Assembly (NCBI GenBank): GCA_030145345.1
Contig: JAQYVT010000024.1
Span: 1 to 33,330, forward strand
DNA from: Desulfobacterales bacterium
GTDB taxonomy: Bacteria; Desulfobacterota; Desulfobacteria; Desulfobacterales; UBA11574
Reading direction: 5' to 3'
DNA: 33,330 nucleotides
The stretch's first letter is position 1. Each line of letters begins with the position of its first letter. The notes under the pieces are model-generated. The model searched no databases and was not told where the DNA came from. It worked only from the letters and a program-made list of their open reading frames with translations. This document shows positions 1,969 through 28,681 of this stretch, in pieces. The position numbers were made by a program, and so were the translations under genes.

Positions 1969-4122
1969 ATGGACTCTGAAACAGTTGAGTTTCCAAATCT
2001 CCCTGAACGCTTGAGCGGACTTGGGGAACTGGCGGACAATCTCTGGTGGAGCTGGCATCCTGCGGCAAGAATGCTGTTTAAAATGCTTGACCGGCAGGCA
2101 TGGAAAGAGAGCAGACACAACCCCGACAAGATGCTTAAAGAGATGCCGGCTGAAATTTTGGCGTCTGCCGCTGCCAACGACGATTATTTGCGAAATTACG
2201 ATGTGGTGCTCTCTCAGTTTCACAGGTACCTATCGGACACATCGTGCCGATTTTTGAACCATTTCCCGTGTGATCCGGGCACCTTTGCCGTCGCTTATTT
2301 TAGCGCTGAATACGGGCTTCATCGTTCCTTGCCGTTTTACGCCGGCGGTTTGGGATTTTTGGCCGGAGATCACATCAAGGAATGCAGCGATCTGGGTGTC
2401 CCCCTGGTGGCCGTCGGTTTCATGTATCCCCAAGGGTATCTCCATCAACACATTCGCGAAGACGGCTGGCAGGAAAATATTCATGAGCCCATCAACAGGG
2501 ATGCCACACCGATTTCCAGGGTACTCGACGATGAGGGACGGCAGCTTGTGGTTCAAGTTCCCTTCATGGATCCGGCAATCCATGTGGGCGTTTGGAAAGT
2601 AAACGTCGGTCGAATATCCCTGTATCTACTGGATACGGATATCGAGAACAACGATCCGTGGAACCGCGGCATATCGGCCCGTCTGTACATCGGGGACATC
2701 GAGCAACGACTGCGCCAGGAAATTGTTCTCGGAATCGGCGGGGCCGAAGTTTTGGAAATTCTGGGAATCAAACATTACCTGATGCATCTTAACGAAGGGC
2801 ATGCCGCCTTTGCCCTTTTGGAACGCATCCGTGACCGGATGCTGGAGGGCATGCCGTATCCCGAGGCCGCCGAACAGGTGAGAAACACCACCGTTTTTAC
2901 CACGCATACGCCGGTCCCGGCCGGTCATGATGCCATCCCGTTTCACCTGATGGAAAAACATTTTCATGCCTACTGGCCGGCGCTGGGCTTAGATCGCGAC
3001 GCCTTTCTTCAGCTGGGAATCCACCCTGAACAACCCCATACAGGATTTAACCTGACGGCCTTTGCCCTCAGAATGTCCGCCCATCGCAACGGCGTCAGCA
3101 AACGGCATGGAGAAGTTTCCAGACAAATGTGGCAAAGTCTCTGGCCGGAGGCATCTGAGTCAGAGGTTCCTGTGGATCATATCACCAACGGAGTCCATGT
3201 CCCCACATGGGTTGATCCCCGGATGAAACGTCTTTTCGATACCCATTTGGGCCCTGAATGGCTGACCGATCATGACAATCCCCTTGTCTGGGAACTGGTC
3301 GACAAAATCCCGGATGAAGCGCTGTGGAGAACCCATTACTGGTTAAAGATCAAACTCATCGATGCCATAAGGGAGCGATCACGCCGTCGGTGGGCCCGAG
3401 ATCACGTCAGTCCGTCCATCGTGATTGCCGGTGGAACACTGCTCGATCCTTCGGTATTAACCCTGGGCTTTGCACGTCGTTTCGCCACCTACAAACGGGC
3501 TGACCTGCTCTTTAATGATATGGAGCGCCTGAAAAAACTTCTCAACGACCGCTGGCGGCCTATCCAGATTATCTTTGCCGGCAAAGCGCATCCCGCCGAC
3601 GATCCCGGCAAGCAGATCATTCAAAGGGTGTTCAATGCCGCCCGTGACCCGGAAACCGGAGGGCGCATCGCCTTTGTGGAGGACTACGGGGAACAACTGG
3701 CGCAATATATGGTTCACGGCGTGGATGTGTGGCTGAACAATCCGTTGCCGCCCATGGAAGCCAGCGGAACCAGCGGCATGAAAGCCGCCTTGAACGGGGT
3801 GCCCCAGCTCAGTATAATGGACGGCTGGTGGATAGAGGGCTTTAACGGTAAAAACGGCTGGGCATTCAGTCACAAAAACGTCGACGAAAACCGGGATGCC
3901 GCCGATGCCGCCGAACTCTACCGCATCCTTGAAGAAGAAGTGGTTCCAATATATTATAACGTATCGGATGACGGCGTTCCTCTGGACTGGGTAAACGTCA
4001 TGAAAAATTCCATTAAGAGTAATGCAGCAAAATTTTCGGCCCGGCGAATGGTCAAGGAATACATCGAGAAATTTTATGCCAAAGGCCTTGAAAGCGTCTT
4101 ATTGCATCAAAATGAAGGTTAA
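1969..4122 (+). CDS. glgP: Alpha-glucan (glycogen/maltodextrin) phosphorylase, GT35
   Basis: The protein is a 717-residue phosphorylase that releases glucose 1-phosphate from alpha-1,4-glucans. It belongs to the shorter bacterial/archaeal branch of GT35, recognisable by the N-terminal DUF3417 region (LPERLSGLGELADNLWWSW near residues 10-30). The pyridoxal-phosphate lysine is Lys605 within EASGTSGMKAALNG, a hallmark of the family. The ATG at 1969 follows AAAGGAA at a spacing of eight bases; a TTG at 1945 is an in-frame alternative. About 50 bases separate it from gapN, so the two probably form a unit feeding stored glucan into lower glycolysis. Natural substrate length (glycogen or maltodextrin) cannot be told from sequence. 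Confidence 0.93.
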   Translation: MDSETVEFPNLPERLSGLGELADNLWWSWHPAARMLFKMLDRQAWKESRHNPDKMLKEMPAEILASAAANDDYLRNYDVVLSQFHRYLSDTSCRFLNHFPCDPGTFAVAYFSAEYGLHRSLPFYAGGLGFLAGDHIKECSDLGVPLVAVGFMYPQGYLHQHIREDGWQENIHEPINRDATPISRVLDDEGRQLVVQVPFMDPAIHVGVWKVNVGRISLYLLDTDIENNDPWNRGISARLYIGDIEQRLRQEIVLGIGGAEVLEILGIKHYLMHLNEGHAAFALLERIRDRMLEGMPYPEAAEQVRNTTVFTTHTPVPAGHDAIPFHLMEKHFHAYWPALGLDRDAFLQLGIHPEQPHTGFNLTAFALRMSAHRNGVSKRHGEVSRQMWQSLWPEASESEVPVDHITNGVHVPTWVDPRMKRLFDTHLGPEWLTDHDNPLVWELVDKIPDEALWRTHYWLKIKLIDAIRERSRRRWARDHVSPSIVIAGGTLLDPSVLTLGFARRFATYKRADLLFNDMERLKKLLNDRWRPIQIIFAGKAHPADDPGKQIIQRVFNAARDPETGGRIAFVEDYGEQLAQYMVHGVDVWLNNPLPPMEASGTSGMKAALNGVPQLSIMDGWWIEGFNGKNGWAFSHKNVDENRDAADAAELYRILEEEVVPIYYNVSDDGVPLDWVNVMKNSIKSNAAKFSARRMVKEYIEKFYAKGLESVLLHQNEG

Positions 4123-4175
4123 CCCGAATATTTTCACCCTACGGGCTGAGAATTCAGGACACAGGAGTTTGGTCG

Positions 4176-5801
4176 ATGCGCTTGAAAACGAAAATCGATT
4201 CCATATTCCCGGAAGAAAAAAGCATCCCCAAAGATATCATGGCCGGCATACCGGCACCGGTTGATCGATATCTGATCGACGGTGAACTTCGAGGCTGGAA
4301 AGGTCACACGCAGACGGTTTTTTCGCCGGTCTGCCTAAAAACCTCATCCGGACTCGAGCCTAAATGCATCGGCAGTTATCCCCTGCTTACGCAAAAAGAA
4401 GCCCTGAAGAGTCTCGATGCAGCGGCGGGCGCCTATCTTAACGGCAGAGGAACCTGGCCCACAATGTCTGTGGCGGATCGGATTAAATGCATACAAGCCT
4501 TTGCCCATCAGATGGTCGAACAAAAAGACCGGGTGGTCCGGCTTTTAATGTTGGAAATCGGGAAATCTCTTGAAGATTCGATCAAGGAATTCGACCGAAC
4601 CGTCGACTATATCAAAGATACGATTGCGGCTTTAAAAGATCTGGACCGGGTATCATCGCGATTTGTGATCGAACAGGGAATCATCGGACAAATCCGGCGA
4701 GCGCCGCTGGGTGTTGTTCTCTGCATGGGCCCCTTTAACTACCCGCTCAATGAAACCTTTGCCACCCTTATTCCCGCACTGATCATGGGAAACACCGTTA
4801 TTTTAAAACCCCCCAAACACGGCGCCTTGCTGTACGGTCCCCTTCTGGTGCCTTTCCGGAATGCTTTTCCCAAAGGCGTTCTGAATGTTGTTTTCGGGGA
4901 AGGTCGCGAGATCATTCCACCGCTAATGGCTTCCGGCAGCATCAACGTTCTCGCCCTTATCGGTACCAGCAAGACGTCGGACTTTTTGAGAAAAAAACAC
5001 CCCAAACCCCATCGGCTTCGGTGTGTTTTGGGGATGGAAGCCAAAAATGCGGCGATAATTTTACCGGATGCGGATCTGGATCTGACGGTTCGCGAATGTA
5101 TCCTGGGATGCCTGTCTTTCAACGGCCAACGCTGCACGGCCCTGAAGATCTTGTTTGTTCACACTAAAGTTATCAAGCCCTTTTTGGAACGGTTCTCACA
5201 GGCTGTAAGCCGCCTTAAATTCGGCATGCCATGGGAAGGCAACGTATTCATAACACCGCTACCGGAAACCGGGAAACCCGATTATCTGGCTGAACTGGTG
5301 GAAGACGCCCGGCAGTTCGGAGCAAGGATAATTAATGAAAACGGAGGGCGAATCAATCGCAGTTTTTTTTACCCGGCAGTACTTTATCCGGTGAGCCCTA
5401 AGATGAGAGTGTATACCGAAGAACAGTTCGGTCCGGTAATTCCGATACTTTCATTTGATGATATTGAAATTCCCATCGATTATACCGTAGCGTCGAATTA
5501 TGGTCAGCAGTTAAGTATATTCGGGGGCGACCCTGTTGTAATTGCCCGTCTCATTGATCCTTTGGTCAATCAGGTTTGCCGGGTAAACATCAACAGCCAA
5601 TGCCAGCGAGGTCCGGACACGTTTCCGTTTACAGGCAGAAAAGATTCCGCAGAAGGGACCCTTTCCGTTGCAGATGCCCTCCGGGCCTTTTCCATCCGAA
5701 CGCTGGTGGCTGCAAAGGAATTGGATCTAAACCGTAAAATTATAACAACGATCGTTAGAGAACGTCGATCCAACTTTCTTTCCACGGACTTTATTCTATA
5801 A
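4176..5801 (+). CDS. gapN: NADP-dependent non-phosphorylating glyceraldehyde-3-phosphate dehydrogenase (ALDH superfamily)
   Basis: This 541-residue aldehyde dehydrogenase most resembles the GapN type, which oxidises glyceraldehyde 3-phosphate directly to 3-phosphoglycerate with NADP+, bypassing the ATP-yielding step. The general-base Glu288 (GMEAKNA) and catalytic Cys320 (FNGQRCTALK) are present at normal ALDH spacing. The segment INSQCQRGPDTFPFTGRKDS near the C-terminus matches the phosphate-binding end of GapN enzymes. An AGGAG at 4163-4167 supports the ATG at 4176. The gene follows glgP closely and precedes a small exported protein by 16 bases. The N-terminus (about 60 residues before the ALDH core) is longer than in streptococcal GapN. 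Substrate assignment is inference from the conserved C-terminal block; another phosphorylated aldehyde is possible. Confidence 0.8.
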   Translation: MRLKTKIDSIFPEEKSIPKDIMAGIPAPVDRYLIDGELRGWKGHTQTVFSPVCLKTSSGLEPKCIGSYPLLTQKEALKSLDAAAGAYLNGRGTWPTMSVADRIKCIQAFAHQMVEQKDRVVRLLMLEIGKSLEDSIKEFDRTVDYIKDTIAALKDLDRVSSRFVIEQGIIGQIRRAPLGVVLCMGPFNYPLNETFATLIPALIMGNTVILKPPKHGALLYGPLLVPFRNAFPKGVLNVVFGEGREIIPPLMASGSINVLALIGTSKTSDFLRKKHPKPHRLRCVLGMEAKNAAIILPDADLDLTVRECILGCLSFNGQRCTALKILFVHTKVIKPFLERFSQAVSRLKFGMPWEGNVFITPLPETGKPDYLAELVEDARQFGARIINENGGRINRSFFYPAVLYPVSPKMRVYTEEQFGPVIPILSFDDIEIPIDYTVASNYGQQLSIFGGDPVVIARLIDPLVNQVCRVNINSQCQRGPDTFPFTGRKDSAEGTLSVADALRAFSIRTLVAAKELDLNRKIITTIVRERRSNFLSTDFIL

Positions 5802-5817
5802 ACAAGGAGAATCGAAA

Positions 5818-6417
5818 ATGAGAAAGAATTCTGTTTTGATGGCGCATGTAATGATCCTGAGTATAATTTGGGGGGTAACTTCGTATGCCGGGGAACCGCC
5901 AAAACCGTTCGGTCTGACCATCGGAAAAACAACGTATGCACAAACCCTTGAAACGCTTCAACAGCGAAAATGGAACTATCAGGAATACATAAAAAAACAA
6001 CTGAAACTGATCGATAAAAAGGATCCTAGCCGCGGTCAAAACACCTTTTTGTCCGTAACGCCCAAAGATACCGAAGGTGTTAAAAATATAATGATATTTT
6101 TTGATGGCAACTCGGAACTGGAGGCCTTGATTGTTGGTTTGGATCCAAAACTTTTCTATGTAATTTGGGATGAACTGGATAAAAAGTATGATTTTGTGAG
6201 TAAAAACCTCGAGGGGGATTATTTTACATCCGACTATCCCCGGATATTGTGGCAAAAGGAAAGTGTTTACATCGAGCTGCAGAAATTAAGCTCCCATAGG
6301 GTGCGACTGGTTTATGTGGAAAAAATGCTATATGAAAACTTTAAAGACTTTCTCCAGAAAACTTACGAACCGTACCGACGCAAAAAATCAAAAAAAGACT
6401 GGATGGACAATTTATAG
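5818..6417 (+). CDS. Exported hypothetical protein
   Basis: This is a 199-residue protein with a signal peptide (charged MRKN start, hydrophobic stretch to about residue 22, likely cleavage near SYA-GEP). The mature part starts with a PFGLTIGKTTY segment typical of small periplasmic proteins with an alternating alpha/beta fold. It is Lys- and Tyr-rich and ends with a basic tail (RRKKSKKDW). No catalytic motif or cysteine pair is evident. AAGGAGA at 5804-5810 gives a strong start. It sits directly behind gapN (16-base gap), so it may be co-transcribed, but nothing links it functionally to glycolysis. Function unknown. Confidence 0.8.
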   Translation: MRKNSVLMAHVMILSIIWGVTSYAGEPPKPFGLTIGKTTYAQTLETLQQRKWNYQEYIKKQLKLIDKKDPSRGQNTFLSVTPKDTEGVKNIMIFFDGNSELEALIVGLDPKLFYVIWDELDKKYDFVSKNLEGDYFTSDYPRILWQKESVYIELQKLSSHRVRLVYVEKMLYENFKDFLQKTYEPYRRKKSKKDWMDNL

Positions 6418-6498
6418 TCTGGAATCCGATGATGTTTTGAAAATGATCTGCCGACCCTTAACGGAACTTCAGGAACCTTCGGTTGAAAGGAGCTGGGG

Positions 6499-6723
6499 AT
6501 GACACCTAAACGTATTGCGCTGATTATCATTGCTATTTTGTTTGCCGTTTTTATCCTACAAAACGCCCAGGTGGTGGAAGTTCGATTTTTATTCTGGGGC
6601 ACCGAGGCATCCCGGGCCATTGTTTTGCTGGTCACCTTCTTCCTCGGTCTTGCTTCCGGATGGCTGTCCGGCTGGAAACACAAAAAGCCTGCCGGGAATA
6701 AACCCAAACCGAATATGTCATGA
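6499..6723 (+). CDS. LapA-domain (DUF1049) small membrane protein
   Basis: A 74-residue protein with two hydrophobic segments (about 5-22 and 40-60) and a basic C-terminal tail. The motif FILQNAQVVEVRFLFW between the helices is the signature of the LapA/DUF1049 family, whose E. coli member works with LapB in controlling lipopolysaccharide synthesis. No lapB-like TPR gene is adjacent, so that role is only suggested. AAAGGAG at 6486-6492 supports the start. Its stop codon overlaps the start of the downstream UspA gene by four bases, indicating translational coupling. Confidence 0.8.
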   Translation: MTPKRIALIIIAILFAVFILQNAQVVEVRFLFWGTEASRAIVLLVTFFLGLASGWLSGWKHKKPAGNKPKPNMS

Positions 6724-7688
6724 ACCATAACGAAATAAAAACAATGAATAAAATAACGTCCAAAATGGTTGTCGTACCGGTTGACGGCTCTGAGAATGCG
6801 TTAAGAGCTTTGAATTATTTAAGCCTCGTTTTTGGATCGAAATATAATTTAAAAGTCGTATTATTCTACCTGTTGCCGAGCTTGCCACAGATATTGATCG
6901 AGGGAAGCACAACAAGCGATGAGATGGCCCGGAAGTTCACCGAGCTTGAAAAAAAGAACAGTGCCATGGCTCAACGAATTCTATCTGAGGGGAAAAAAAG
7001 GCTGCTTGACAAAGGTTTTAAGAAACAGGCTGTTGAAACGGTGTTTCAAAAGAGAGCGGTCGGCGTTGCACGGGATATTTGCAACGGGTCGGAAAATATG
7101 CGAGCAGATGCCATTATTATTTCCACACGGGGACTCAGCCGACCGAAGGCCTTTTTTATAGGAGAGACCGCGAACAAAGTACTCGAATTCAGCCGGTCTT
7201 GCCCGGTATGGATGGTTAAAGGGGCTGTCAGAAAAAAGAATGTACTCTTGGCCATTGACAACTCCCAAAATGCTATGCGCGCGGCTGATTATGCCGGGTT
7301 CATACTTCCCGGCACCGAGACACATGTAACGATTTTTCATTCAAAACGAGATTTAAAAAGATTCATGCCGAATGGGCTGATAGAAGAATTCCCTGAATTC
7401 CAGAAATTCTGGAAACATAAGGCAGGGGAAGTGGTCGCGCCTTACTTGAAGAGAGCAAAAGAAATACTTATTAAAGCAGGGTTAAAAGAGAATCAGGTGT
7501 CGATCAAATTGGATGACGGAAGCGAAAGCGCTGAAATAGATATTCTCAAAGAAGTTGAAAATAGTGATGCGGGAACAATTATTCTGGGCAAGCGAGGGTG
7601 TTCCGATGAAAAAAAATTTTCCATGGGAACTGTGGCTAAAAAAGTGCTATATCAAGCTTCGGATTTGACAGTTTGTGTCGTTCCTTAA
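6720..7688 (+). CDS. Tandem universal stress protein (two UspA domains)
   Basis: The 322-residue protein contains two UspA folds in series. The first begins at about residue 15 (KMVVVPVDGSENALRAL) and ends near VWMVKG; the second begins KNVLLAIDNSQNAMRA and ends VCVVP. Each ends with a degenerate version of the nucleotide-binding G-x2-G-x9-G-S/T loop (STRGLSRPK, GKRGCSDEKKFSMGT), the second being the better preserved. Double-domain Usp proteins are cytoplasmic and often respond to redox or starvation stress. The ATG at 6720 overlaps the upstream stop (ATGA); a second ATG at 6744 is an alternative. Ligand and partner are unknown. Confidence 0.88.
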   Translation: MNHNEIKTMNKITSKMVVVPVDGSENALRALNYLSLVFGSKYNLKVVLFYLLPSLPQILIEGSTTSDEMARKFTELEKKNSAMAQRILSEGKKRLLDKGFKKQAVETVFQKRAVGVARDICNGSENMRADAIIISTRGLSRPKAFFIGETANKVLEFSRSCPVWMVKGAVRKKNVLLAIDNSQNAMRAADYAGFILPGTETHVTIFHSKRDLKRFMPNGLIEEFPEFQKFWKHKAGEVVAPYLKRAKEILIKAGLKENQVSIKLDDGSESAEIDILKEVENSDAGTIILGKRGCSDEKKFSMGTVAKKVLYQASDLTVCVVP

Positions 7689-8566: not shown

Positions 8567-8906
8567 GGGTGTTGTCCTCGATGAGTGAAGTTTCCGAAAT
8601 TAAACCTTTTTAGTGTGACTTTAAAGATATTATACCAGATAATTTTGGAATAGGACAGCAAATCCTAAAAATGCACTGAACCCCATATTAAAATATCATT
8701 TGGATATCTATATGTTACATCCTCTTTGTGCCTTACATAGGTTCATATGGCTTTTTTCTATTTAGCCATCGCATTTATATGATTTTACCTCAATAATTTT
8801 TCCCGGCCAACTTCTTTGTACTAGCGTTGCTGAAAATTAAGGGTGTGAAACTTGAATCTATAAATTATCATTTTCAATCTCTTTCTTATTATCCGTCTTT
8901 CGGTTA
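8567..8906. other. Intergenic region with dispersed repeat
   Basis: This AT-rich gap holds no gene. Its recognisable content is one copy of a 35-base repeat at 8677-8711. No clear promoter for the minus-strand gene at 7871-8566 was seen. Confidence 0.5.
8677..8711. repeat. 35-base dispersed direct repeat, copy 1
   Basis: The block beginning TGAACC and containing CATATTAAAATATCATTTGG matches 13853-13887 at 33 of 35 positions in the same orientation. Both copies lie beside the 3' ends of minus-strand genes. It has no coding content. Confidence 0.65.
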
Positions 8907-9908: not shown

Positions 9909-10270
9909 GAGATTGTCTGCCCGTAAATACTATTAAAAATGTTTTTTAAATATCGAACAAATATGGCCATTGAGGGCCGTTTACCTATATTTCGGGATAC
10001 CGACAGATGAAACTTGCAATCCCATCCAAGATGACTTAACCTACTATAATTATTTATCGAAAACCTTTTTGATCCTACGCTCCAAGCGGCTCAACCCATT
10101 CAAGTTTCGCCCCCCTAAAAACCATGTCGCGTTAACCGGCGGTGCGGGTATTGAGAAGCGTTCGCGGCATGAATATGGCAACAGGATTTAATTGCGTGTT
10201 GCACCCATTTATTGAAATAACTCGAAAAGATTGACCATCATCATTTATTTTTCACAAGAGGGCTGAAGAT
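9909..10270. other. Divergent intergenic region
   Basis: The gap lies between the minus-strand exchanger and the plus-strand primase-like gene and therefore should hold both promoters. No good -35/-10 pair was recognised. An open frame at 9970-10191 has no ribosome-binding site and unnatural composition and is not called a gene. AAGAGGG at 10256-10262 is the ribosome-binding site for the next gene. Confidence 0.4.
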
Positions 10271-11599
10271 ATGAACGCTCGGGAATATTACCATCGCGTG
10301 ATCGATCGATTAAAAAATTGCTTTCAACTCAGTCATTATGTCGTTGCCACAGGCAACGAACTTGTTGCGGAGGGTTACGACCCTGGGTTTCCGGCAGCAG
10401 CAGAACCGATCCATCGGCTTGAACGCCTTACCCTTCAGAGAGCGCTTCAAGTCCATATTCCTCTTATCGGCGAAAAATCACAATCCGTGCTTATGCCGAT
10501 TGATTTCGAGATCTTTCTGGCAGAAGAAAATCACACCCTTTATGAAGATAAGACCGCCCAGAGAAAATTATTTGATCAGGTTATTCCGGTTCTTCATTTT
10601 CTTGAAGACCTGTTTCGCTCAAGGGGTATGCCCTATCTTCTGGATTATACGCCTTCGGGCGCACATATTTTATTTCAAAATCTTTTAGGATATCGTGCCA
10701 CAGAAGAACTGGGAAAAATCGGTTATCTGGAAGAGGATCTTATTAAGGCATGCAGTTACATCGATCCCAGGGACATCCGACGCAAGTACGGAGTTTCACT
10801 GGATGCTGCCCGTGTTTTTAGCGGGCTCGGAAAACTTGCTGAATATATTGCCCTTCTCACCATGGAAGCTTTTAAGGAAAACGCGTCAGCAGGTCTTTTC
10901 CCGGTTACCATCTCCGATAGTGATGACCGCTGTCTTAATTTTGACAATTCCTGGAGCGAAGGATCTCCTTTTATGCGCTCCATCCGAAGCCCTTTCAGCC
11001 TGCACAAAAAAAATCAAGAAAAATACGGTAAATACCACGAACCTCCACTGGTAGACGTAATCGGAACATACTTTGATGGAAATACTGCAACCGAAGAAAC
11101 GAATGTCGAGGTTATTCTGGACTGTATGTGGGACCTTGAAACGGCAGCGCAGCATGCACAGCGCTTTTCAGGTTTCATTCCCTGTTCCAATGAAACATTG
11201 ATTGATTTTATTCGGGAATATACATCATCCGACCTTTATCTTTTTCACCAAGATTTTGACAGCGAAACGGATATTCCCAAAGGATCTGCTCTTGAATCCG
11301 CCAAAAAGGAGAAAAACATTCCGGACTGGACCAGACAAATCCTTTTCTTTCCAAATCCCTCGGCACTTCAACCCAAAAAAATGATAGGGCTTGTTTTCGA
11401 TTTCCTCATTCACGCTCACTGGAAGCCCAAACACATTGCAAACATTCTTCGGGATATCTATCAAAATCCTTCGTTCAATTGGACACAGGATTTTTTTAAG
11501 TATCCTGCGGAAGAAAAAGCCAATTTCTGGGCAAGGACCTACAGTGCGGTGGCACTCTGGGAAACCGGCAGACTGCATATCGAGTCATACCGAACATAG
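10271..11599 (+). CDS. Putative archaeo-eukaryotic-type primase (AEP) family protein
   Basis: This 442-residue protein is not matched to a named family by eye, yet it shows the ordered motifs of AEP-superfamily primases. Motif I is MPIDFEI (Asp78, Glu80). Motif II is DYTPSGAHILF (Ser129 to His132). Motif III is CLNFD (Asp225), followed by RSIRSPFSLHKK (Arg239, Leu244-His245), which mirrors the LPGSLHGKTGL-type block after the third Asp in archaeal PriS. The C-terminal segment (about 370-435, with HWKPKHIANILRDIY and FWARTYSAVALW) looks like a helical accessory domain. Predicted activity would be nucleotidyl transfer or primer synthesis. It stands alone: no helicase, integrase or plasmid gene is adjacent. 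AAGAGGG at 10256 supports the start. The family call is inference from motif order and spacing. Confidence 0.55.
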   Translation: MNAREYYHRVIDRLKNCFQLSHYVVATGNELVAEGYDPGFPAAAEPIHRLERLTLQRALQVHIPLIGEKSQSVLMPIDFEIFLAEENHTLYEDKTAQRKLFDQVIPVLHFLEDLFRSRGMPYLLDYTPSGAHILFQNLLGYRATEELGKIGYLEEDLIKACSYIDPRDIRRKYGVSLDAARVFSGLGKLAEYIALLTMEAFKENASAGLFPVTISDSDDRCLNFDNSWSEGSPFMRSIRSPFSLHKKNQEKYGKYHEPPLVDVIGTYFDGNTATEETNVEVILDCMWDLETAAQHAQRFSGFIPCSNETLIDFIREYTSSDLYLFHQDFDSETDIPKGSALESAKKEKNIPDWTRQILFFPNPSALQPKKMIGLVFDFLIHAHWKPKHIANILRDIYQNPSFNWTQDFFKYPAEEKANFWARTYSAVALWETGRLHIESYRT

Positions 11600-11648
11600 C
11601 CAATCATATTGAAAAGTGAGATCACATACGAGAAGTATTGCAGAAGCT

Positions 11649-12407
11649 TCACATCATCAATATCATCTGTAACAGTTGTTTCTTCTGGTCTGAGGTCAAA
11701 ACATCTTTAGCATTCAAGATGTAATTCACCCGGTTGTCAATGCGTTTGGCGCCGATATCGGTGATGACCATAATGATATTGTTGACCTTCTCCGGATTCT
11801 GTTCCGTTGCCTTCATTTCGTCCTGCAGGTCTAAAAGCTTGTAGTTCATTTCCAGTTCCAGTTTAAGGTCCCTGATGTCCATGTCCGCCCCGTATTTAAG
11901 GAATTTTTTTATCTGGTCTTTGGTCAGATCGAGCATCAGTGAGGGAAGATCAAGCTTAAGATAGTAGGAAAAATCGTCAGGCGTGTCGATGTCAAAATCG
12001 AGAAGAGCGGAAATCAGCCTCGATTTCTGCTTGTCATTTAAAATATCTTTTGCCTTGAGGATATATTTCACCCGAAGTTTCAGCAAATCGCCGTAAAGGA
12101 CGCTGATATTTTTTACCAGTTCGTTAAAATTTCGAGAACCGGCCCGGGCTTTGAATGGGGTGTCAAACCGGTCTTCCCTTTTCAGCTCCTGTTCTATCAC
12201 CAAGAATTTTTCGTCGATCTTTGAAACAATCTCGAGTTGTTTGGCGTTGAGTTCCTTGATCAGCGAATCCAGCTTGCTGATCTGCTCCTTGGTCAGGTTC
12301 ATGTTGGGAACCGGACCTGTATTCCCCGCCGCCGTTGAGGCTGCGTTAGAAAAAATAAGGATTGCCGCTGCGATAATTGAAACAGATATATTTTGTTTGG
12401 ATATCAT
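11649..12407 (-). CDS. Duplicated LTxxQ (Spy/CpxP-like) periplasmic protein
   Basis: A 252-residue exported protein with a signal sequence (residues 1-27, cleavage near STA-AGN) followed by four LTxxQ-type motifs: LTKEQ at 38-42, LNDKQ at 123-127, LTKDQ at 161-165 and LTSDQ at 237-241. The segments 114-132 and 228-246 (YILKAKDIL / YILNAKDVL) are clearly duplicated, so the protein is two Spy/CpxP-like units in tandem, about twice the usual length. Family members are ATP-independent periplasmic chaperones or metal-stress sensors. The ATG at 12407 is preferred because GGAAGGG lies just upstream; a longer frame to 12467 has no such site. It converges with the primase-like gene (50-base gap). Confidence 0.75.
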   Translation of the reverse strand: MISKQNISVSIIAAAILIFSNAASTAAGNTGPVPNMNLTKEQISKLDSLIKELNAKQLEIVSKIDEKFLVIEQELKREDRFDTPFKARAGSRNFNELVKNISVLYGDLLKLRVKYILKAKDILNDKQKSRLISALLDFDIDTPDDFSYYLKLDLPSLMLDLTKDQIKKFLKYGADMDIRDLKLELEMNYKLLDLQDEMKATEQNPEKVNNIIMVITDIGAKRIDNRVNYILNAKDVLTSDQKKQLLQMILMM

Positions 12408-12880
12408 TTTTCCCTTCCTGGTATGCAAGCTTATTTCATTTCTTTGACATGGATGTTTTCCTCTCAACCAGCCTTTTCATAGTACCTCCTTTAGCGCCTT
12501 ATCGTTATCATTACCACGATATCCGGCCAACGCTTTTCCTTTATTCCAACATTTCATTCTTCCATGTCTGCAATATAAACAAATTGCCATTAAAAGGCAT
12601 GTGACATCAAAATTTATCGAATTCCCGATACGATTGAACACGATGATTATTTTTGTAATTTCAATATTTTTTGCATTTTTAGCATCACTCGCCCTGCTAA
12701 CTCTTGTAATTCAAACCGCCGTTGATTTCAGTATTTAATCATCGCCGGTCCTCTTTTGGGGATTTATTTTTTTGGGGTAATGATTATAGTTAAGCAAACC
12801 GAACGGCCGACATCTATCTGCCTGATGACAGAGACGGCCTCGAATGAGTAAATAACCGAATTCAAAGAGGAGGCAAGGCC
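12408..12880. other. Divergent intergenic region
   Basis: This 470-base gap separates the LTxxQ gene (-) from yitT-like (+). It is AT-rich and contains a TTATTCCAAC...CATTCTTCCAT stretch (12541-12566) similar to one at 28432-28463, and a 31-codon hydrophobic frame at 12643-12738. GAGGAGG just before 12881 is the downstream ribosome-binding site. No promoter is called. Confidence 0.4.
12643..12738 (+). CDS. Possible single-span membrane mini-protein
   Basis: ATG at 12643 opens a 31-codon frame ending at TAA 12736-12738. The product is almost entirely hydrophobic (starts MIIFVISIFFAFLA, ends QTAVDFSI), enough for one membrane helix. There is no ribosome-binding site, and AT-rich DNA yields such frames by chance, so the call is weak. 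A type I toxin-like or regulatory peptide is the only functional class that would fit. Confidence 0.2.
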   Translation: MIIFVISIFFAFLASLALLTLVIQTAVDFSI

Positions 12881-13852: not shown

Positions 13853-13887
13853 TGAACACCATATTAAAATATCATTTGGATGTCTAT
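13853..13887. repeat. 35-base dispersed direct repeat, copy 2
   Basis: This copy differs from 8677-8711 at two positions. It ends on the last base of the sdhB stop codon region, in the convergent gap between yitT-like and sdhB. It may serve as a 3'-end or REP-type element. Confidence 0.6.
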
Positions 13888-28305: not shown

Positions 28306-28681
28306 TTCTTTTCTCGGATTTCAATAAGAATTAGGGATATAAGTTAAAGGATTCGGCCCAATTGGAATAATGGCGCAATCTAATGATGGGTTTGAGGAAT
28401 TTTTAACAATTTAAATTTATTTTCGCTCTTATTCCCAATATTCCGGCATTCCATTCTTCCATACGGGTGGGACGAACAAAGTTTCATTTGAAGCTATCTC
28501 AAAATAATCTATTGGCCCAATCTCGGCGTTGGAGCCTCGTTTTAAGTCCTCGACATACTTGAGTATGCCTGCGGGTTAAAACTCGGCTCCGCCTTGATCT
28601 TGAACCAAAATCTTGATTTTGAGATGGCTTCAAGAAGAATCGTAAATTCGAAAAGTTGTTGAACGTTAGAGACATTGAATT
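28306..28681. other. Intergenic region filled by repeats
   Basis: No gene. The first part holds a CAATTGGAATAATGG motif (28359-28373) that is the reverse complement of 24711-24725, and a CTTATTCCCAAT...CATTCCATTCTTCCAT stretch. The second part is the family 1 copy B element. A sequence of the same type precedes 12566. Confidence 0.5.
28488..28633. repeat. Inverted-repeat element, family 1 copy B (extended cruciform)
   Basis: TTGAAGCTATCTCAAAAT (28488-28505) and ATTTTGAGATGGCTTCAA (28616-28633) are inverted at 17 of 18 positions. A second stem pairs 28531-28545 with 28576-28590 (13 of 15), and the centre is the palindrome CATACTTGAGTATG (28554-28567). Thus nearly the whole 146 bases can extrude as one hairpin. 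Its core blocks match copy A in reverse orientation. Confidence 0.75.

Follow-up and report, generated by a model that had tools for sequence, protein, structure and literature searches.

The window, a stretch of 33,330 nt, carries a gene whose 442-residue product we consider likely to be a chromosomal primase-polymerase of the AEP superfamily with a fused PriL/PriCT-like domain, acting in DNA repair (gap filling, perhaps repriming). The assignment of an AEP fold and active site is well supported by homologues and by the predicted structure, and we infer that the protein has primase or polymerase activity. The superfamily is a known one; the family is unnamed in the libraries searched. No paper describing it was found in a search of literature available without subscription. 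Few bacterial AEPs have a chromosomal repair job (LigD polymerase, Prim-PolC), most others being mobile-element replicases. If our reading is true, it adds a chromosomal AEP family in which predicted PriS-like and PriL-like parts are joined and of which a sister branch is operonic with an endonuclease IV-like enzyme. The gene and its features are as follows.

10115..11664, + strand: segment common to the window and its nearest homologue locus (L001), 94% nt identity, with different neighbours on both sides
10256..10262, + strand: likely ribosome-binding site AAGAGGG, read from the sequence about 8 nt 5' of the ATG
10271..11599, + strand: AEP-family primase-polymerase gene of clade A, 442 aa (ORF with ATG start; AlphaFold model; dN/dS)
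10502..10510, + strand: motif I, D78-F79-E80 (DxE), predicted metal ligands; D78 and E80 invariant (38/38); on strand 73-82
10655..10666, + strand: motif II, S129-G130-A131-H132 (small-x-His), predicted nucleotide binding; G130 in 38/38; H132 on strand 131-135
10943..10945, + strand: motif III, D225, predicted metal ligand; 38/38; at the end of strand 221-225
10976..11011, + strand: block after motif III, R236-x-I-R239-x-P-F-S-x-x-x-K247; R236, R239, P241, F242 and K247 in 38/38
11168..11596, + strand: C-terminal all-helical domain, residues 300-442, PriCT-1/PriL-CTD-like (domain model; weak VIA-align matches; 2vtb match)

A previous reading of the sequence alone (the sequence-only reading) had located D78, E80, S129-G130-A131-H132, D225 and R239-SPFSLHK-K247, and all are where it put them. 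Taken alone, the letters of motifs I-III exceed chance only slightly: shuffling the protein 2000 times produced a comparable pattern 176 times (8.8%), and such a string is also found in 4 of 72 unrelated ORFs of about the same length. They are lifted above chance because they are conserved in homologues. The alignment comprises 38 sequences (25 rows from clade A, to which the window protein belongs, and 13 from clade B) with identities down to about 24%, and D78, E80, G130, D225, R236, R239, P241, F242, and K247 are invariant throughout. H132 is kept in 34 of the 38, Asn being found in its place only in four near-identical loci of a single bacterial family (f28, loci L071-L074). AEP motif I (hhhDhD/E) corresponds to D78-x-E80 in every sequence, with Pro at position 76 in clade A; motif II (small-x-His) is matched by G130-x-H132 and motif III (hD/E) by F224-D225. 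The DxE, GxH, and hD letters agree with the AEP motif definitions in the literature (PMC5862659; PMC4538821). The "SLH" block which had been noted after motif III is present in the window, but H245 is confined to clade A and is Tyr in clade B, so that the form universal to the family reads R-x-P-F-[S/T]-x-x-x-K. Residues R236-K247 probably provide triphosphate or template contacts. In 11 closely related homologue pairs, dN/dS is 0.06-0.17, and the protein is therefore under purifying selection.

An AlphaFold2 model was obtained from 24 aligned clade A proteins (pLDDT 78, pTM 0.86). Its best match in VIA-align is Prim-PolC (6sa0) with Z 12.5 over 248 residues at 3.9 A, followed by methanogen NHEJ polymerase (Z 11.1), LigD polymerase (Z 10.7-11.0), CRISPR-associated Prim-Pol (CAPP; Z 9.4-10.0), and PriS (Z 7.8-9.6), while the first row that is not an AEP has Z 4.2. 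With Foldseek against the PDB, the first six rows are all AEPs, at E-values which are not significant (best 0.13). In the model, motifs I, II, and III coincide with core strands 73-82, 131-135, and 221-225 or with their ends. Comparison of the clade B profile with LigD polymerase by hhalign aligned motif II only (TG-QGHHFVWRV / TGSKGYHLVAPL; E 0.0087, probability 4.6%). The divergent bacterial AEP proposed from the sequence alone is supported by the VIA-align fold match together with the invariant catalytic residues. A refuting test had been set beforehand, namely a missing RRM-like AEP core or a lack of residue conservation; the core is present in the model, the residues are conserved, and as far as this test could be taken the proposal was not refuted.

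Searches of Pfam, NCBIfam, PHROGs, PADLOC, and PDB sequences gave no significant match, and none was obtained to any known AEP family among the libraries searched. The window protein has no Pfam match to PriS (PF01896), and no PriL gene was found in its own genome. In the search with the LigD polymerase model (TIGR02778), the window protein is not listed at E <= 10; no member of set A2 has a Pfam match to PriCT-1 or PriCT-2; mobile-element primase families were not matched in Pfam or PHROGs; and a profile comparison with PolpTN2 gave no match. Matches to NrdI (E 0.2) and b10 (E 1.3) were rejected as chance.

A scan of GTDB contigs retrieved 27 loci. Nearly all come from Desulfobacterota-type genomes and are 64-96% identical; a single Lentisphaerae locus has 50% identity. 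A second and distant set, with members in Desulfobacterota and in the phylum to which the Lentisphaerae genome belongs, was reached by profile searches. One further match, in genome G038 (L037), was rejected, being partial (E 7e-4) and lost with the profile. In a maximum-likelihood tree, the split between clade A (25 rows, the window protein among them) and clade B (13 rows) has full support; the tree is unrooted and does not imply descent of one clade from the other. Clade B is 24-33% identical to clade A, and a profile-profile comparison joins the two over 358 columns (E 1.6e-28). Two branches are supported within clade B: one comprises nine members that have a TIM-barrel gene downstream, the other the four f28 members, in which a TIM barrel is located upstream. 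The distribution of clade A is patchy, with 3 of 395 in the phylum sample. Genomes usually carry a single copy; the only one with two is the Lentisphaerae genome, where two convergent clade A genes (L105, 8148-11156) are found, the second being a divergent paralogue. Three clade A copies (L024, L025, L027) are frameshifted or partial, which suggests repeated gene loss.

The genomic context of clade B hints at a role in repair of the chromosome. In all nine loci of its main branch, a gene for a PF01261-type TIM barrel follows directly downstream on the same strand, and in several of them the AEP and TIM-barrel genes overlap by 4 nt. Positions were placed by alignment to the solved endonuclease 4 chain 5zhz, and nine of endonuclease IV type (H, H, E, D, H, H, D, H, E in order), which are the zinc ligands in E. 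coli Nfo, are invariant in all nine partners. The PF01261 fold and the nine ligands are common to the clade B partner and to endonuclease IV (Nfo) or MJ1311-type TIM barrels, and the partner appears to be an endonuclease IV-like enzyme; a nine-ligand pattern is not equivalent to a proven endonuclease, and the closest PDB sequences (MJ1311, TTHB071) are uncharacterised. The f28 loci have a different PF01261 protein, located upstream, and the one tested (L072) fails the nine-ligand pattern. One clade B locus (L076 in genome G195, 2584-7225) is near two genes which, as read from the sequence, resemble those for the nuclease subunits SbcD and SbcC.

The window gene has no such adjoining gene. Two TIM-barrel candidates for a partner in trans were considered in its own genome. 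C124, which gave the best full-length match to the TIM barrel of clade B, does not conform to the nine-ligand pattern; the other (C79) has all nine ligands and is weak at 27% identity and without linkage. The gene for the latter (L108, 1219-2043) lies beside a topoisomerase-like gene.

Residues 300-442 are all helical in the model, and this domain reached pLDDT 84.5 when modelled alone. The top two rows of its VIA-align search are the helix bundle of the pRN1 primase (Z 5.0 and 4.7), with unrelated rows at 4.3; this bundle is PriCT-1, which is related to PriL (PMC5862659). In the whole model, residues 323-432 match residues 339-445 of cryptochrome 2vtb (Z 4.0, photolyase patch), and the C-terminal domain of yeast PriL superposes on 373-457 of the same entry (PMC2852410). 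Each of these matches is weak alone. Clade B proteins have an extra C-terminal tail beyond clade A, and in 12 of the 13 cysteines are kept at PPC, FNC, and GxC, with a fourth in the vicinity, whereas the three aligned cysteines are missing in the remaining clade B protein (L102) and in all 25 clade A proteins. A shared metal cluster would produce such joint presence and absence; from the cysteine spacing in yeast PriL, this would presumably be a PriL-type [4Fe-4S] cluster. The suggestion that the C-terminal segment is PriCT-like thus gains modest support from the pRN1 and 2vtb matches and from the clade B cysteines, but not from Pfam, where PriCT is not matched. It also raises the question how a PriL-type domain works when the iron-sulfur cysteines are missing, which bears on the role of the Fe-S cluster in primases.

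In the mechanism that we propose, the N-terminal AEP core (about residues 60-290) would carry out two-metal nucleotidyl transfer by D78, E80, and D225, with H132, R239, and K247 holding the incoming nucleotide. The C-terminal helical domain (300-442) would hold the template and the initiating nucleotide, so that one chain may do the work of PriS plus PriL. The job would be short DNA synthesis in chromosome repair, to fill the small gaps left by base excision or by end cleaning; repriming past lesions may be a further task. A repair role is favoured because the sister clade B is operonic with an endonuclease IV-like enzyme, and this partner lends indirect support to the repair function suggested from the sequence alone. 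A chromosomal repair primase-polymerase is favoured, too, because Prim-PolC, the closest fold, is a gap filler, because endonuclease IV as a bait pulls LigC, and because LigD polymerase is absent. Mycobacterial Prim-PolC fills short gaps in base excision repair (PMC7442782), and endonuclease IV as bait co-purified LigC, while Prim-PolC itself bound LigC1 only, in vitro (PMC5663958). Of the 60 genomes that were searched for the TIGR02778 LigD polymerase, 59 do not have it, and it is not present in the own genome.

The transfer of this function from clade B to the stand-alone clade A is an assumption: clade A is without a partner gene and is scattered over many unrelated neighbourhoods, and a repair role for it is deduced from a sister clade with 24-33% identity. 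Also against the preferred reading are the missing sequence match to known AEP families, the Foldseek E-values, the weak match of the C-terminal domain, the upstream TIM barrel of f28, which fails the nine ligands, and the Asn which replaces the motif II His in the same loci. As a tentative scenario, in which we place rather less confidence than in the repair primase-polymerase itself, the unnamed family fuses a PriS-like core and a PriL-like domain, clade B having a four-Cys Fe-S cluster and forming a cleave-and-refill pair with its endonuclease IV-type partner, and clade A being a stand-alone repair polymerase without cluster or partner. The question then arises whether a base-excision repair module of two proteins was put together in bacteria separately from LigD and LigC.

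Prim-PolC (LigC-associated; 6sa0, 5op0) is, like the window protein, a stand-alone bacterial AEP polymerase with motifs I-III; however, the two are 13% identical in the structural alignment, the C-terminal helical domain of the window protein is longer, and no ligase was recognised adjoining it. With LigD polymerase (TIGR02778) it shares the AEP core (Z about 11) and the profile alignment at motif II, but it is devoid of a ligase or nuclease domain and is found in genomes lacking LigD polymerase. The combination of a PriS-like core and a PriL/PriCT-like domain in one chain resembles PriS/PriL and the fused PolpTN2; the cysteine spacing of clade B is PriL-like, whereas the clade A domain is without these cysteines. 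PrimPol-PV1 proteins with PriCT-1 or PriCT-2 are also bacterial and also consist of an AEP core and a helical C-terminal domain, but their genes are mobile, often with helicases, while the window family is chromosomal and a mobile context was not found.

The strongest alternative is a PrimPol-like repriming or translesion primase that starts DNA ahead of stalled forks and has little tie to excision-repair gaps. For initiation, AEPs rely on a fused PriCT/PriL-like domain (PMC5862659), and the window protein is stand-alone, as is human PrimPol. We nevertheless regard this as unlikely, given that the best fold match is the gap-filling Prim-PolC, that an endonuclease IV-like gene accompanies clade B, and that clade A is without the Fe-S-type cysteines present in 12/13 clade B members.

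The neighbourhood of the gene bears on a mobile origin. The sequence-only reading had offered a domesticated mobile-element replicase as one option, and a single-gene mobile element, as in the PrimPol-PV1 families, would be a variant of it. Most bacterial PrimPol-PV1 AEPs sit on mobile elements (PMC5862659), clade A is patchy, and the sequence that L001 (96% identity) has in common with the window reaches no further than 156 nt upstream and 65 nt downstream of the gene, the flanking genes being different. Against this, neighbours in the window were matched by a Pfam scan to ordinary functions (Na/Ca exchanger, YitT, universal stress protein, and an iron-sulfur (Fer2/Fer4) protein), the adjacent scanned genes being a transporter or unmatched proteins. 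Neither helicase nor integrase was recognised among the scanned neighbours, as had been observed before, nor was a Rep. No ligase was matched by Pfam among them either, some of these neighbours being without any match. No relative was found in IMG/VR viral contigs or in phage or plasmid collections, no terminal repeats surround the gene, one copy per genome is the rule, and matches to PriCT or mobile-element primases are missing in Pfam and PHROGs. We therefore consider a mobile-element replicase, domesticated or not, to be quite improbable. Least probable of all is an AEP-fold protein without polymerase activity that acts in DNA binding or nucleotide sensing, which the extreme divergence from known AEPs and the Asn for the motif II His in L071-L074 would suit, but which is at odds with purifying selection and with the invariance of all three metal-ligand positions across 38 sequences.

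Across the 27 loci, clade A has no general conserved neighbour beyond close relatives, and no Rfam RNA was found. In an empty-site comparison within the genus, the match of genome G396 to the left flank ends at window position 8624, near a contig end, and that to the right flank starts at 12815, which does not fix the boundaries of an insertion. Several repeats were observed in the window. A sequence between two ORFs (28333-28631) has copies with 76-79% identity on another contig of the genome (L060), in L001, and in a sister genome (L058), and looks like a dispersed repeat family. An intergenic stretch of 110 nt (8758-8867) has copies with 80% identity in a genome from the same genus (L048, partly L051). 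Finally, a 35-nt sequence occurs twice in the window as a direct copy (8677-8711 and 13853-13887; 94% identity).
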